Of a stretch of DNA of 64,000 nucleotides, positions 31,265 through 34,740 are shown piece after piece; within the stretch, counting starts at the first letter, position 1, and each line of letters begins with the position of its first letter. The notes below the pieces were generated by a model. It worked only from the letters and a program-made list of their open reading frames with translations, searched no databases and was not told the origin of the DNA. Both the position numbers and the translations under genes were made by a program. The DNA comes from Aquabacterium commune (GTDB lineage Bacteria; Pseudomonadota; Gammaproteobacteria; Burkholderiales; Burkholderiaceae_C), in NCBI RefSeq assembly GCF_004362855.1, contig NZ_SNXW01000001.1, positions 246,121 to 310,120 on the forward strand. Direction: 5' to 3'.

Positions 31265-31442
31265 GGTGCTCGTTCAAGAGGGGGCTGAAATGACCCAATG
31301 AGGGCAAAGATGAGATTTTACGGCAGCCGATCGGCGCATGCCGCATCAGGGCTGAGGTGCGGCCCGCCATGGTGCGCGCGCCAGCTGGGCCTCTTCCATA
31401 AAAAATCAAATCCATAAAACACGTTTTGTTACTTTTATTGTC

Positions 31443-31471
31443 TTTACGAGTGCATTTTGCACACGTACATT
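31443..31471 (+). promoter_or_regulatory. Promoter candidate with embedded dyad upstream of the cassette
   Basis: TTTACG (31443-31448) and TACATT (31466-31471) are spaced by 17 bases. The spacer contains the perfect inverted repeat GTGCA-TTT-TGCAC (31450-31462), a good place for a repressor. The surrounding bases are clearly AT-rich compared with the neighbourhood. This is inference from sequence alone. Confidence 0.45.
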
Positions 31472-31541
31472 GGGTGTGTCCCGCCGGGATGCCAGCACAG
31501 CGGACACGCCGTCTGGCCCATCAACAGACAAGGAACACACC

Positions 31542-31721
31542 ATGAACAAGATCGCACGCACCGCCTTCGCCGCCACCTTGGCCCTCGGCCTGATCGGCCT
31601 CGCCCAAGCCCGCGCCGAGCGCCCTGAGAAGGCAGAAAAGCCCGAGAAGGTGGAGAAAGTTGAAAAGATTGAGAAGGTTGAAAAAGTGGGCGCCGTGGCC
31701 TCGTCGCGCCTGACCGCCTGA
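31542..31721 (+). CDS. Small secreted protein with EK triplet repeats
   Basis: I do not recognise this 59-residue protein. It has a clear signal peptide (MNKIARTAFAATLALGLIGL, cleavage probably after AQA) and a short mature part built of x-Glu-Lys triplets (PEKAEKPEKVEKVEKIEKVEK, with A, P, V or I in the first place), ending in GAVASSRLTA. The triplets use mixed codons (GAG/GAA, AAG/AAA), which suggests the pattern is held at protein level rather than by recent slippage. AAGGA lies eight bases before the ATG. The next gene starts eight bases after the stop, so it is the first gene of a four-gene operon. Confidence 0.75.
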   Translation: MNKIARTAFAATLALGLIGLAQARAERPEKAEKPEKVEKVEKIEKVEKVGAVASSRLTA

Positions 31722-31729
31722 TCCGCATC

Positions 31730-32497
31730 ATGACAATGGCCATGCGCAGCTTGTGGACCCGGCTCCTGCCTGGGTGCTGGCTGTGCCTGGCCGGCTTGGC
31801 CTCTGCCGAGGTCGTGCCAGACCTGCCCCCACCCGACAACATCGACCTGCAACTGGCCTTCGAAAACGCCACCGGGCGTTATGGTGAGGCCAAGTCCTCC
31901 GGCATCCGCCAGACCACCTTGAGCACCCGCTACCGCAAGGGCAACTGGCTGCTGGGCCTGGACGCGCCCTGGTTGCAAATCCAAGACCGGGCGCCAGATG
32001 CCGACCACCCGCGCGCAGAAGGCGTCGGTGACGTGGTGCTCAGGCTGACACGCACGCTGCGCGACCTCGACACCCGAGGCCCCGGCATCGACATCACCAC
32101 GAAGGTCAAAACACGCACCGGGAACGCCGGGCTGGGCCTGGGCAGCGGCGCCACAGACGTGTCCCTGCAAATCGACGGCACCCAGCTGCTGAGCCGCAGC
32201 ACCTTGCTGTTTGGCCACATCGGCAAGCGTGAAACCGGCGACCTGCCCGGGCGCAAACCTTTCAAAGACCCCTGGTACGCCGAAGCGGGCTTCCAGACGC
32301 GCTGGGCGAACCAGCACGACGCCGGGGTGTACCACAGCGTCCGCGGTCGCATCGGCGCCCTGGGCCCCTTGCGGGAGTGGACGGCGTTTGCCGGCACCCG
32401 GGTGGACGCCATGCGGTTCCAGGTTTACCTCTCTCACGGCGTGAGCCGTGCCAGCGCAGATTGGGCAGCTGGCATGATCGGCCGCTACCGTTTTTGA
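31730..32497 (+). CDS. Predicted outer-membrane beta-barrel protein
   Basis: This 255-residue protein has a signal peptide (about residues 1-26, ending GLASAEV) and a mature part of alternating polar and apolar strands ending in Phe (GMIGRYRF), as outer-membrane barrels do. Segments such as TTLSTRYRKGNWLLGLDAPWLQI, and GVGDVVLRLTRTLRD resemble transporter-like barrel proteins of proteobacteria, but I cannot assign a family. There are three possible ATG starts (31730, 31736, 31742). It lies between the EK-repeat peptide and the DUF6502-like gene with gaps of 8 and 24 bases. Confidence 0.7.
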   Translation: MTMAMRSLWTRLLPGCWLCLAGLASAEVVPDLPPPDNIDLQLAFENATGRYGEAKSSGIRQTTLSTRYRKGNWLLGLDAPWLQIQDRAPDADHPRAEGVGDVVLRLTRTLRDLDTRGPGIDITTKVKTRTGNAGLGLGSGATDVSLQIDGTQLLSRSTLLFGHIGKRETGDLPGRKPFKDPWYAEAGFQTRWANQHDAGVYHSVRGRIGALGPLREWTAFAGTRVDAMRFQVYLSHGVSRASADWAAGMIGRYRF

Positions 32498-32521
32498 CCT
32501 GCACGCCAAGCTGCACCTCTG

Positions 32522-33403
32522 ATGACCGACGCGCCCTCCCCTCTGCCCAGCGACGATGCCCCCGACCGGGCGCCGGGCCTGACCGCTGCCGTGCGCGACA
32601 TCGTCGCGCCCTTGGCGCAGTTGGCGATCGCCAAAGGCATGCGCTACCCCGAGCTCGACGAGCTGCTGAAAGGGGCCTTGGTCGAGGCGGCACGCCAGGC
32701 CCACGCCGACGTGCCCTTGAGCCGAGTGGTCAGCCGCATCAGCACCGCCACCGGCATCAACCGCCGGGAGGTCACCCGCCTGACTCACCAAGCGTCCACC
32801 GAGAGCAGCAAACCGCGCTCCGTCGTCAATGAGCTGTACGCGCGCTGGTCCACCGACCCCGGCTACCTCCAACACGGTCAACCCATGCGACTGCCCCGCC
32901 TGGGCGCAGACCCCAGCTTCGAAGGCCTCGCCACCTCGGTGAACAAGGACGTGCGCCCCCGCAGCCTGCTCGATGAGCTCTGCCGCCTGGGCATGGCCAA
33001 GGTGCACGAGGACGACACGGTCGAGTTGCTGCAAGACAAATTTGTGCCCAGCCAGGACGAGCGCCAGATGTTCGCTTTCCTGGGGGCCAACGTGGGCGAC
33101 CACCTGCAAGCCGCAGTGCACAACGTGATGGGCCACGGCGTGCGCACGCTGGAGCAGGCCTTGTTCACCGATGCGCTCTCGGCCAGCTCGGTCGAAGTCA
33201 TCCGACCGAAGGTCAGCGCGCAGTGGCAATCCGTGGTGCGCAGCCTGGCGCCCGAGGTGCAATCCCTCATGGACCACGACAAGGCCCAGCAGCATCCGCA
33301 GGACCACCGACTGCGTATCGGCATGTACATGTACGCGGCGCCCCTGGCCCGCACACCCGAAGCGGACGAAGCATCCGCCCCCCCGAAAAAGGAGACCCCA
33401 TGA
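32522..33403 (+). CDS. DUF6502-family protein
   Basis: This 293-residue soluble protein resembles the DUF6502 family. It has an N-terminal helical part (AVRDIVAPLAQLAIAKGMRY), then a helix-turn-helix-like segment (PLSRVVSRISTATGINRREV, about residues 60-80) and a conserved block with RWSTDPGYLQHGQPMRLPRLG. There is no signal peptide or membrane helix, so it should be cytoplasmic. The HTH-like segment suggests DNA binding, but no function is established. Its stop overlaps the next start (ATGA at 33400-33403), so it is made together with the DUF5666-type lipoprotein; these two families are often neighbours in betaproteobacteria. Confidence 0.75.
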   Translation: MTDAPSPLPSDDAPDRAPGLTAAVRDIVAPLAQLAIAKGMRYPELDELLKGALVEAARQAHADVPLSRVVSRISTATGINRREVTRLTHQASTESSKPRSVVNELYARWSTDPGYLQHGQPMRLPRLGADPSFEGLATSVNKDVRPRSLLDELCRLGMAKVHEDDTVELLQDKFVPSQDERQMFAFLGANVGDHLQAAVHNVMGHGVRTLEQALFTDALSASSVEVIRPKVSAQWQSVVRSLAPEVQSLMDHDKAQQHPQDHRLRIGMYMYAAPLARTPEADEASAPPKKETP

Positions 33404-34653
33404 CGTCCAAACCTCCACGCGCGGCCCCCGCTGTCTCAGGCCTGAAACAGCGCTTCACAGCCTGTGCGCTGGGCTGCCTGCTGGCCCTGTCGGCCTGCGG
33501 AGGCGGAGGTGGCGGGAGCCCCTCCGCATCGAACGGGGTGGGCGTGGGAGGCACCGGCTCGGCGGCTGGGCCGGTGACGGGGTTTGGCTCCATCATCGTC
33601 AACGACATCCGCTTCGATGACAGCACCGCCCTAATCTTCGATGACGACGACACCAGCAAGAATCGCAGCGACATCAAGCTGGGCATGCTGGTCGACGTGC
33701 GATCGGGCGTGTTCACCGACGATGCGACAACGGGCTTGCGCAACGCCACCGCCACCCAGATCATTTACGGCAGCAGCCTGAAGGGCGTGGTGACGGCCAA
33801 GGGCGCCTCCAGCATCACGGTGCTGGGTCAGGTTGTCAACGTCACCAGCACGACGGTGTTCGACGGCTTCGCTTCTGGCCTCGCCAGCGTGACGACCAGC
33901 AGCCCGAACAACCTGGTGGAAGTTCATGCCTTGTTCAACCCGAGCACCAGCCAATTCACGGCCACGCGCATCGAACGCAAGAGCGCACCTTTGAGTGAAT
34001 GCAAGCTGACCGGGCTGGTGAACGCGCTGAGCACCAACGCACAAACCTTCTTCATCAATGGTTTCTCGGTGGCCTATGCCGGCGCCACCCGCGTCAGTGG
34101 CTTGGCGGAGGGACAGCGTGTCAAGGTGAGGCTGGCCTTCAATGCGGGCAACTGCACCAACAATGCCACACGCATCGACGGTGCCCAAACTGCCTTCGCA
34201 GACAACAGCAGCGCGGAAGTCGAAGGCTTCGTCAGCAACTTCATCAGCAGCGCTGGCGCCATCACCTTCAAGGTGAACGGCGTGCCCGTCAGCGCCACCA
34301 CGGTGGCCACGGGCGTCGCTGATGGCATCCGGGTGGAGGCCGAGGGCGTGGTGCGCAACGGCGTGCTCGTGGCATCCAAGGTGGAACGCAAGGACTTGCC
34401 CAGCACCGACAGCGTGAGGCTGTTTGGTTCACCCAGTGGCCATGCCCCCTCGACAGCCACCACCGGGACATTCATCGTCCAGGGGCAGACGGTGTACTAC
34501 GACACCGCGACGACCCGGTTCGACAACTTCTCGGACAGCAACACCTTCAACAACCCATCGGCATCTCTGGAAGTGCGCGGTGCGCCGGACAACTCGGGCA
34601 CCGTGAGCCCGGGCACCGTGATCATCGCGTCTGAAATCAAGCTCAAGAACTGA
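33400..34653 (+). CDS. DUF5666-type exported lipoprotein
   Basis: This 417-residue protein starts at the ATG inside the DUF6502 stop. The N terminus has a lipoprotein signal (CLLALSAC, Cys33) followed by a glycine run. The mature part repeats DUF5666-like beta units: each has a G-x-V-x-x-x strand, a V-x-V-x-x-x-T turn and a V-E-V or V-R-V strand (for example LKGVVTAKGASSITVLGQ, LTGLVNALSTNAQTF, and VEGFVSNFISSAGAITF). Such proteins are probably surface or periplasmic; no activity is known. A strong terminator follows at 34670-34698. Confidence 0.78.
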   Translation: MTSKPPRAAPAVSGLKQRFTACALGCLLALSACGGGGGGSPSASNGVGVGGTGSAAGPVTGFGSIIVNDIRFDDSTALIFDDDDTSKNRSDIKLGMLVDVRSGVFTDDATTGLRNATATQIIYGSSLKGVVTAKGASSITVLGQVVNVTSTTVFDGFASGLASVTTSSPNNLVEVHALFNPSTSQFTATRIERKSAPLSECKLTGLVNALSTNAQTFFINGFSVAYAGATRVSGLAEGQRVKVRLAFNAGNCTNNATRIDGAQTAFADNSSAEVEGFVSNFISSAGAITFKVNGVPVSATTVATGVADGIRVEAEGVVRNGVLVASKVERKDLPSTDSVRLFGSPSGHAPSTATTGTFIVQGQTVYYDTATTRFDNFSDSNTFNNPSASLEVRGAPDNSGTVSPGTVIIASEIKLKN

Positions 34654-34669
34654 AGCACCCTGCCCCATG

Positions 34670-34698
34670 AAAAAACCCCGCCAAGGCGGGGTTTTTTT
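34670..34698. terminator. Bidirectional terminator between the cassette and gltA
   Basis: An uninterrupted stem (AAAACCCCGCC with its complement, two-base AA loop) has seven T residues on the plus strand and six on the minus strand. It ends both the DUF5666 gene and gltA, which converge here. Confidence 0.9.
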
Positions 34699-34740
34699 GC
34701 GCCTCCGCCGAAGCGGTGACCGTCAGGCCGAGGCCTCGGC

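Follow-up and report, generated by a model that had tools for sequence, protein, structure and literature searches.

What do four genes packed onto one strand between leuC and gltA of Aquabacterium commune do together? The stretch analysed here (the window, 64,000 nucleotides of contig NZ_SNXW01000001.1) encodes at this place, in order, an exported peptide of Glu-Lys (EK) repeats, a predicted outer-membrane β-barrel, a DUF6502 protein and a DUF5666 lipoprotein. An earlier note, made from the letters alone, had seen in them a sensing or surface-display system, in which a coupled regulator and lipoprotein would work with a barrel and a charged secreted partner. The same four-gene order (EK-type peptide, barrel, DUF6502, DUF5666) recurs in a metagenome-assembled genome of a Comamonadaceae bacterium (locus L105; loci, genomes and contigs carry our numbers L, G and C), so the gene set of the window is beyond chance. 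Judging from the neighbourhoods compared below, the barrel and the EK peptide belong to the predicted DUF6502 regulon in only a minority of the genomes, yet this association turns up repeatedly. We propose that the four genes would form one DUF6502-controlled envelope operon, with the repeat as the partner of the barrel, threaded through it or lodged in it; belief and doubt in this proposal are, in our judgement, evenly balanced.

The DUF6502–DUF5666 pair

This pair is the core of the proposal. A DUF5666 gene lies directly 3′ of DUF6502 in 69 of the 80 named loci, in 18 of 20 loci of a class sample, in all 20 loci of the relatives and in 20 of the 22 DUF6502 loci that hold a barrel, sets that partly overlap in their genomes. 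Of the 11 unpaired named loci, one meets the end of its contig (L119) and another was counted as unpaired though DUF5666 lies 2 bases downstream (L103); the other nine belong to Geobacteraceae, Geobacter, Desulfuromonadales or Deltaproteobacteria. In two of these nine, L123 and L176, the next gene is lipoprotein-like, that of L123 with a GGTG motif. The window's genome itself holds two DUF6502 genes and three DUF5666 loci. As far as gene order can tell, the pair is thus a near-obligate unit. In many loci (L104, L117, L169, L173, L257 and others) a second DUF5666 gene stands directly upstream of DUF6502, giving the order DUF5666–DUF6502–DUF5666.

A palindrome inside the promoter of DUF6502 operons

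An open search for shared spaced tetramers in the regions upstream of DUF6502 yielded a palindrome common to these operons, AAATGTGC-N5-GCACATTT. The search set comprised 67 regions, or 50 once near copies had been removed, with the window included and loci with a cut or short DUF6502 dropped. At least 12 of the 16 letters are present, at a spacer of 5, in 41 of the 50 non-redundant regions, as compared with 0.3 per 50 in shuffles. Across the 80 named loci, all 63 sites with at least 14 of 16 letters, spread over 58 loci, fall at a DUF6502 or DUF5666 open frame, that is, up to 450 bp before the stop-to-stop frame or inside its first 450 bp (L105 was counted by hand). The exact palindrome occurs twice in 399 genomes of the order, both times in a DUF6502 promoter, one of them common to DUF6502 and a divergent DUF5666 gene, and its backwards control does not occur there. 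With up to three mismatches, the window's genome has 5 sites as against 3 for the control. One, on C8 (one mismatch), begins 82 bp upstream of an orphan DUF5666 gene (L318:1583-3019), which no DUF6502 gene was found to adjoin; another, on C7 (two mismatches), precedes the DUF6502 paralogue.

The palindrome takes up the whole 17-bp spacer that separates the −35 from the −10 element. In this register (shift 0) 27 rows match TTGACA-N17-TATAAT at a mean of 7.04 of 12 letters, 11 of them at 8 or more; at other shifts the mean is never above 4.6, and at shift −6 two rows of the 27 reach 8. Because part of this score came from letters of the palindrome itself, the test was redone on the flanking letters only. 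Scored against TTG and ATAAT, these match at 4.3 of 8 on average (39 rows), whereas shuffled flanks give 2.0, and at most 2.6 in 1000 shuffles. A palindrome inside the promoter spacer makes DUF6502 most likely an autorepressor: the protein would be a dimeric helix-turn-helix regulator that binds the palindrome in its own promoter and shuts the operon. Palindrome and promoter place can be read from the letters; binding by DUF6502, the dimer and the sign of the regulation we infer. In L105 a single perfect palindrome begins 36 bp before the start codon of the EK gene (4714).

Barrel-linked loci have a site of related layout. Upstream of their DUF6502 genes TGGG-N6-TCCC is present in 14 of 22 regions (shuffles 0.0), within the longer GTGGGA-N5-TCCCAC; the class sample has TGGG-N7-TCCC in 11 of 20 (shuffles 0.1). 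At 11 or more of 12 letters, GTGGGA-N5-TCCCAC gives 25 sites in 60 barrel loci, located in 16 of the 22 that hold DUF6502, and none in the 38 that lack it; as controls, one shuffle gave 4 sites, and 894 kb of other DUF6502 loci 1 site. Such sites lie between divergent barrel and DUF6502 genes in L227, L229 and L231 and upstream of the barrel in L232, while one in L102 (11373) lies outside the cassette. In 15 of the barrel-linked genomes, which were searched throughout, 9 of 13 exact sites fall at the cassette. Of the four others, two fall inside gspG-like coding sequence, and the remaining two precede a PEP-CTERM-like gene and a gene for a secreted protein, the latter in a genome that holds the control pattern nine times; further targets are not claimed. 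The site before the PEP-CTERM-like gene (L327:1501-1517, G354), about 90 bp upstream of it, may be a further target or chance.

The barrel and its charged partner

A profile of 42 barrels matches Pseudomonas FapF (E 6.4e-6), collinearly along the barrel, in keeping with the outer-membrane barrel called by the earlier note. Eleven of the 42 aligned members match Phenol_MetA_deg (PF13557) at E up to 0.01, the window barrel not among them, and in the barrels of relatives the signal peptide is followed at once by the first strand. Counting the window's genome each time, the barrel is present in 35 of 399 genomes of the order (window protein as query), 50 of 369 of the class (profile) and 1 of 42 of the genus. 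The 61 barrel loci compared here represent 29 of 36 non-window places in the order, 31 of 59 in the class (window and G051 excepted) and L105; weak barrels are under-represented among them, because stronger matches were chosen and a few places at contig edges skipped. DUF6502 and/or DUF5666 is present in 24 of the 61. No barrel relative was confirmed in viral contigs, and the barrel and DUF5666 profiles, when compared, proved unrelated.

Proteins adjoining the barrel carry export signals, judged here and elsewhere by eye from sequence rather than by a signal-peptide program, together with repeats of the type EKVEKV, ERPEKV, ERPERA or RPEI. Under a fixed score, 30 of the 61 loci hold an EK/RPE-repeat gene or tail no more than 2.5 kb from the barrel, and the same score found no EK/RPE-repeat open reading frame in 1,201 kb of control sequence from 99 DUF6502 loci, one of which (L026) contains a barrel-like frame. 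A second criterion found an adjacent charged gene in 18 of 61 barrel loci, as against 1 of 319 distant genes. By this association the charged repeat, presumably unfolded, is the barrel's partner, and most likely the barrel either exports it or is gated by it.

Gating has its own attraction. In the window and nine other loci (L105, L084, L085, L087, L089, L091, L092, L094 and L096), the gene just upstream of the barrel, on its strand, encodes the repeat, which thus stands where FapF has its N-terminal part. These barrels have nothing between signal peptide and first strand, while FapF, according to the available part of PMC5557850, depends critically on its coiled coil and plug. The repeat could therefore be a separate gate or periplasmic scaffold that replaces the coiled coil and plug helix, the barrel being a channel for small molecules or another substrate. 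We find this conceivable but doubtful, as the repeat also forms the tail of DUF5666 proteins, which are far larger, and proline, often present in every repeat, would make a stable coiled coil unlikely.

Ten of 22 barrel-linked DUF5666 proteins carry the EK/RPE repeat as their own C-terminal tail, and none of 141 others does (Fisher 2e-10); of the other 12, several end in different charged repeats and those of L105 and L237 in none. Of the barrel-linked DUF5666 proteins that could be scored for a lipobox, 2 of 16 have one, as against 111 of 120 scorable others (2e-11), 6 and 21 proteins, respectively, being unscorable and some of the 9 non-barrel proteins scored as lipobox-less still looking like lipoproteins on inspection. 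Accordingly, barrel, repeat tail and missing lipobox occur together. The tail would bring the lipobox-less protein to the barrel in place of a lipid anchor, so that the lack of a lipid-anchor signal in most tailed proteins is to be expected. The DUF5666 frame of L105 has neither the N-terminal motif nor a lipobox.

Alternatively, the repeat might remain periplasmic as a polyampholyte tether between the barrel and either DUF5666 or the cell wall, spacing or stiffening without transport. Charged, proline-containing repeats serve as flexible spacers elsewhere, as in titin PEVK and the TonB linker, and in barrel-linked loci the tails appear where the lipobox is missing. A FapF-type barrel, however, is not needed for tethering, and the EK proteins scanned contain no cell-wall-binding domain (that of L105 was scanned from its second codon); we consider a tether unlikely.

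Several barrel loci display features of their own. Same-family barrels adjoin copper/heavy-metal-like genes, judged by eye, in L221:7039-7509, L240:6808-7254, L247 and L100, and the small exported neighbour in L221 and L240 is Met/Gln/Gly-rich, not EK/RPE. One barrel loop holds a long Asp/Asn/Ser/Gly-rich insert in L101:6237-7673, L243:5688-7088, L244:6419-7483, L245:6118-7440 and L246:6083-7324. In L093:6886-10327 the barrel is followed by genes resembling type II secretion gspG, gspF and gspE (by eye). Among the repeat proteins, an unnamed segment of the form FAGSxxNAxALVxGLRxG precedes the RPE-rich end in L095:6924-7556, L099:5316-5987, L215:5016-5699, L249:6761-7423 and L251:4877-5548; the four scanned (L095, L215, L249 and L251) gave no Pfam match.

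The operon of the window

The layout of the window operon (Table 1) is as the earlier note had it: four plus-strand genes, with gaps of 8 and 24 bases and then an ATGA overlap at 33400-33403. Its DUF6502 and DUF5666 labels likewise stand, both Pfam matches exceeding the cut-off of 27 bits, that to DUF5666 in four stretches.

Table 1. Features of the operon and of its borders, in window positions
Feature	Position	Strand	Remarks
Candidate promoter with embedded palindrome	31443..31471	+	−35 TTTACG (31443-31448), 17-bp spacer, −10 TACATT (31466-31471)
EK-repeat exported peptide	31542..31721	+	59 aa; signal peptide about residues 1-25, then ERPEKAEKPEKVEKVEKIEKVEKV (about 31617-31688)
Outer-membrane β-barrel	31730..32497	+	255 aa; superfamily of FapF and Phenol_MetA_deg; N-terminal coiled coil and plug of FapF absent
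DUF6502 protein	32522..33403	+	293 aa; PF20112, 68.1 bits; predicted helix-turn-helix autorepressor
DUF5666 lipoprotein	33400..34653	+	417 aa; PF18914, 99.1 bits; lipobox LSAC, Cys33 (codon 33496-33498)
Bidirectional terminator-like hairpin, operon/gltA	34669..34698	.	−20.9 kcal/mol, z −3.3

The EK peptide and the barrel belong to no Pfam family, the barrel having no match to Phenol_MetA_deg at E up to 1. The putative recognition segment of DUF6502, SRISTATGINRREVTRL, spans residues 71-87 (32732-32782), and comparison of the family places several invariant residues inside it. The DUF5666 protein has a GVGVGGTG motif and repeated DUF5666 domains. A search of solved structures gave no usable match for DUF6502 or DUF5666. 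The Spy chaperone was ruled out as the identity of the EK peptide (NF007769, 18.4 bits against a cut-off of 174), and no family match supports an enzyme or toxin-antitoxin operon, a result that does not cover the defence-family library, which was not searched.

The signals at the two ends call for more nuance, the earlier note having given the operon its own promoter and a strong terminator. A scan with the sigma-70 consensus lists nothing at 9 or more of 12 letters. The candidate TTTACG-N17-TACATT matches at 8 of 12 (flanking letters 5 of 8), in the same register as the promoters of relatives. It contains a palindrome, ACGAGTGC-ATTTT-GCACACGT, at 31446-31466 (core GTGC-N5-GCAC at 31450-31462), degenerate yet matching the DUF6502-operon palindrome in place and register; taken alone, this copy is weak. 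As for the terminator, the hairpin is there, found by a separate folding calculation and not listed by the sigma-70 scan. It sits between convergent gene ends, and relatives without the cassette have similar hairpins; it is therefore not the operon's own.

The leuC–gltA site and the history of the cassette

The interval between leuC and gltA (31272-34737) is a variable cargo site in the 14 Aquabacterium genomes examined. In the sister genome G026, whose LeuC is 99.8% identical and whose flanking DNA is about 97% identical, the two genes are 186 bp apart and the cassette is absent. Other genes occupy the site in G003, G006, G024 and G062, some genomes have it empty, and G007 has there only a broken-looking DUF5666 gene, 47% identical to the window protein. 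Absence in the sister and variability of the site make the window unit a discrete one of 3.5 kb, gained here or lost in the sister.

Such a site might also bring together two modules by accident, the DUF6502–DUF5666 pair and an unrelated barrel/EK pair. The empty site of the sister, its variable content in the genus and the presence of the barrel in a single genome of that genus would fit. Recurrence elsewhere already disfavours this alternative, to which we give very little credence: the order of the window is found again in L105, DUF6502 and/or DUF5666 accompanies the barrel in the 24 loci counted above, repeat tails occur on DUF5666 only beside barrels, and palindromes stand upstream of the barrel (L232) or in the gap that separates it from DUF6502 (L227, L229 and L231).

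The DUF6502 tree, for which the named loci were thinned to about half and barrel-less rows kept out of the labelled groups, has most barrel-linked genes in a main clade (18 of 20 rows, 97/81) and those of L227, L229 and L231 in a separate one. L230, L239, L105 (sister to a Hydrogenophaga gene from a barrel-less locus) and the window (placement uncertain) stand singly. This distribution suggests that the cassette may have been assembled repeatedly.

A proposed mechanism

Taken together, these observations lead us to the following scheme. The core target of DUF6502 would be the DUF5666 protein, which, by its sequence, is usually a lipoprotein whose GG-x-GGTG motif precedes repeated domains. To this core a recurring variant, to which the window belongs, would add a short FapF-like barrel and an exported charged repeat (EKV, ERPEKV or RPEI). 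The repeat may thread through the barrel to the cell surface, or may lodge in the barrel as a separate plug; in the window it is a separate peptide. Surface display, with the DUF5666 domain acting at the surface, we infer. In its most specific form, the proposal would be that of an export system under DUF6502 control: a plugless barrel of the FapF kind would take an EK/RPE repeat, non-amyloid and balanced in charge, to the surface, either alone or as the C-terminal export tail of an anchor-less DUF5666 protein. We advance this form tentatively, with less than even confidence.

A number of observations weigh against the scheme. The palindrome of the window has only 11 of the 16 consensus letters, a score reached in 2 of 50 shuffled regions, and its core GTGC-N5-GCAC occurs twice in the 64 kb, where about 5 occurrences are expected by chance. 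The flanks of the perfect palindrome in L105 match the promoter at 2 of 8 letters only, and exact GTGGGA-N5-TCCCAC is found 13 times in the 15 barrel-linked genomes, compared with 17 for the backwards control. Of the 80 named and 20 class DUF6502 loci, just one has a barrel. Conversely, 31 of the 61 barrel loci have no repeat gene that passes the strict test, and some barrels adjoin other kinds of partner. The DUF5666 protein of the window keeps its lipobox and has no tail, so the argument from fusions rests on other genomes. Finally, since the main clade supplies most of the barrel-linked rows, the P values given for tails and lipoboxes, which ignore kinship, overstate independence.

How the earlier interpretation fares depends on its part. 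Neighbourhoods and promoter palindromes bear out its idea of a coupled regulator and lipoprotein joined by a barrel and a charged partner; a sensing role, on the contrary, finds no support, DUF6502 looking like a one-component autoregulator. The survey of neighbourhoods that the note had called for cuts both ways. The four genes are rarely together in Burkholderiales, the barrel standing beside 1 of the 80 named DUF6502 loci and having the single occurrence in the genus given above, but at several places of the DUF6502 tree the DUF6502/DUF5666 loci do include barrel and EK/RPE repeat.

Two unnamed families would thereby gain a joint role: DUF6502 is predicted to act as a transcription factor at a defined palindrome, with DUF5666 as its main target, in genomes from Burkholderiales to Geobacter. 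The natural fusions of DUF5666 with the repeat, in turn, point to an export or docking tail.

Comparison with known systems

In the literature searches DUF6502 and PF20112 went unmentioned, and PF18914 and DUF5666 appeared sparsely, the latter within lists in such passages as were available; searches for the repeats as letter strings returned nothing. The DUF5666 protein of the window resembles the Pfam DUF5666 (PF18914) proteins in its full family match with several domain copies, while these searches gave no description of a pairing with DUF6502, of the palindrome or of a lipobox-less form with an EK/RPE tail. DUF6502 resembles one-component autorepressors of the TetR/MarR kind: an HTH-like (helix-turn-helix-like) protein is encoded in its own operon, and a palindrome lies inside the promoter spacer. 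It differs from them in constituting a separate Pfam family (PF20112) and in having no identified ligand domain.

The closest comparison for the barrel is the functional amyloid system Fap. As described in the available part of PMC5557850, FapF is a 12-stranded trimeric barrel with a plug and a coiled coil that exports amyloid subunits; in that of PMC3792158, 68 of 217 hits of a FapF model were correct, and FapF was inferred to be part of a larger family. The window cassette shares with Fap the barrel superfamily, at superfamily level only, and an exported repetitive partner encoded next to the barrel. Unlike FapF, its barrel family has no N-terminal coiled coil or plug; the operon, in which DUF6502 is present, holds its four genes instead of FapB and FapC (no search for these subunits was made in the rest of the genome), and no C39 protease FapD is encoded nearby, the C39 matches of the genome (C7:127655 and C1:116969, frames of 737 and 748 aa) lying on another contig or about 160 kb away. 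As three tested Fap features are lacking, membership is ruled out and the cassette is not a Fap system. Its partner is also of another nature, a charged EK/RPE repeat, and FapF-like barrels may have a second kind of cargo: a charged low-complexity chain, not an amyloid.

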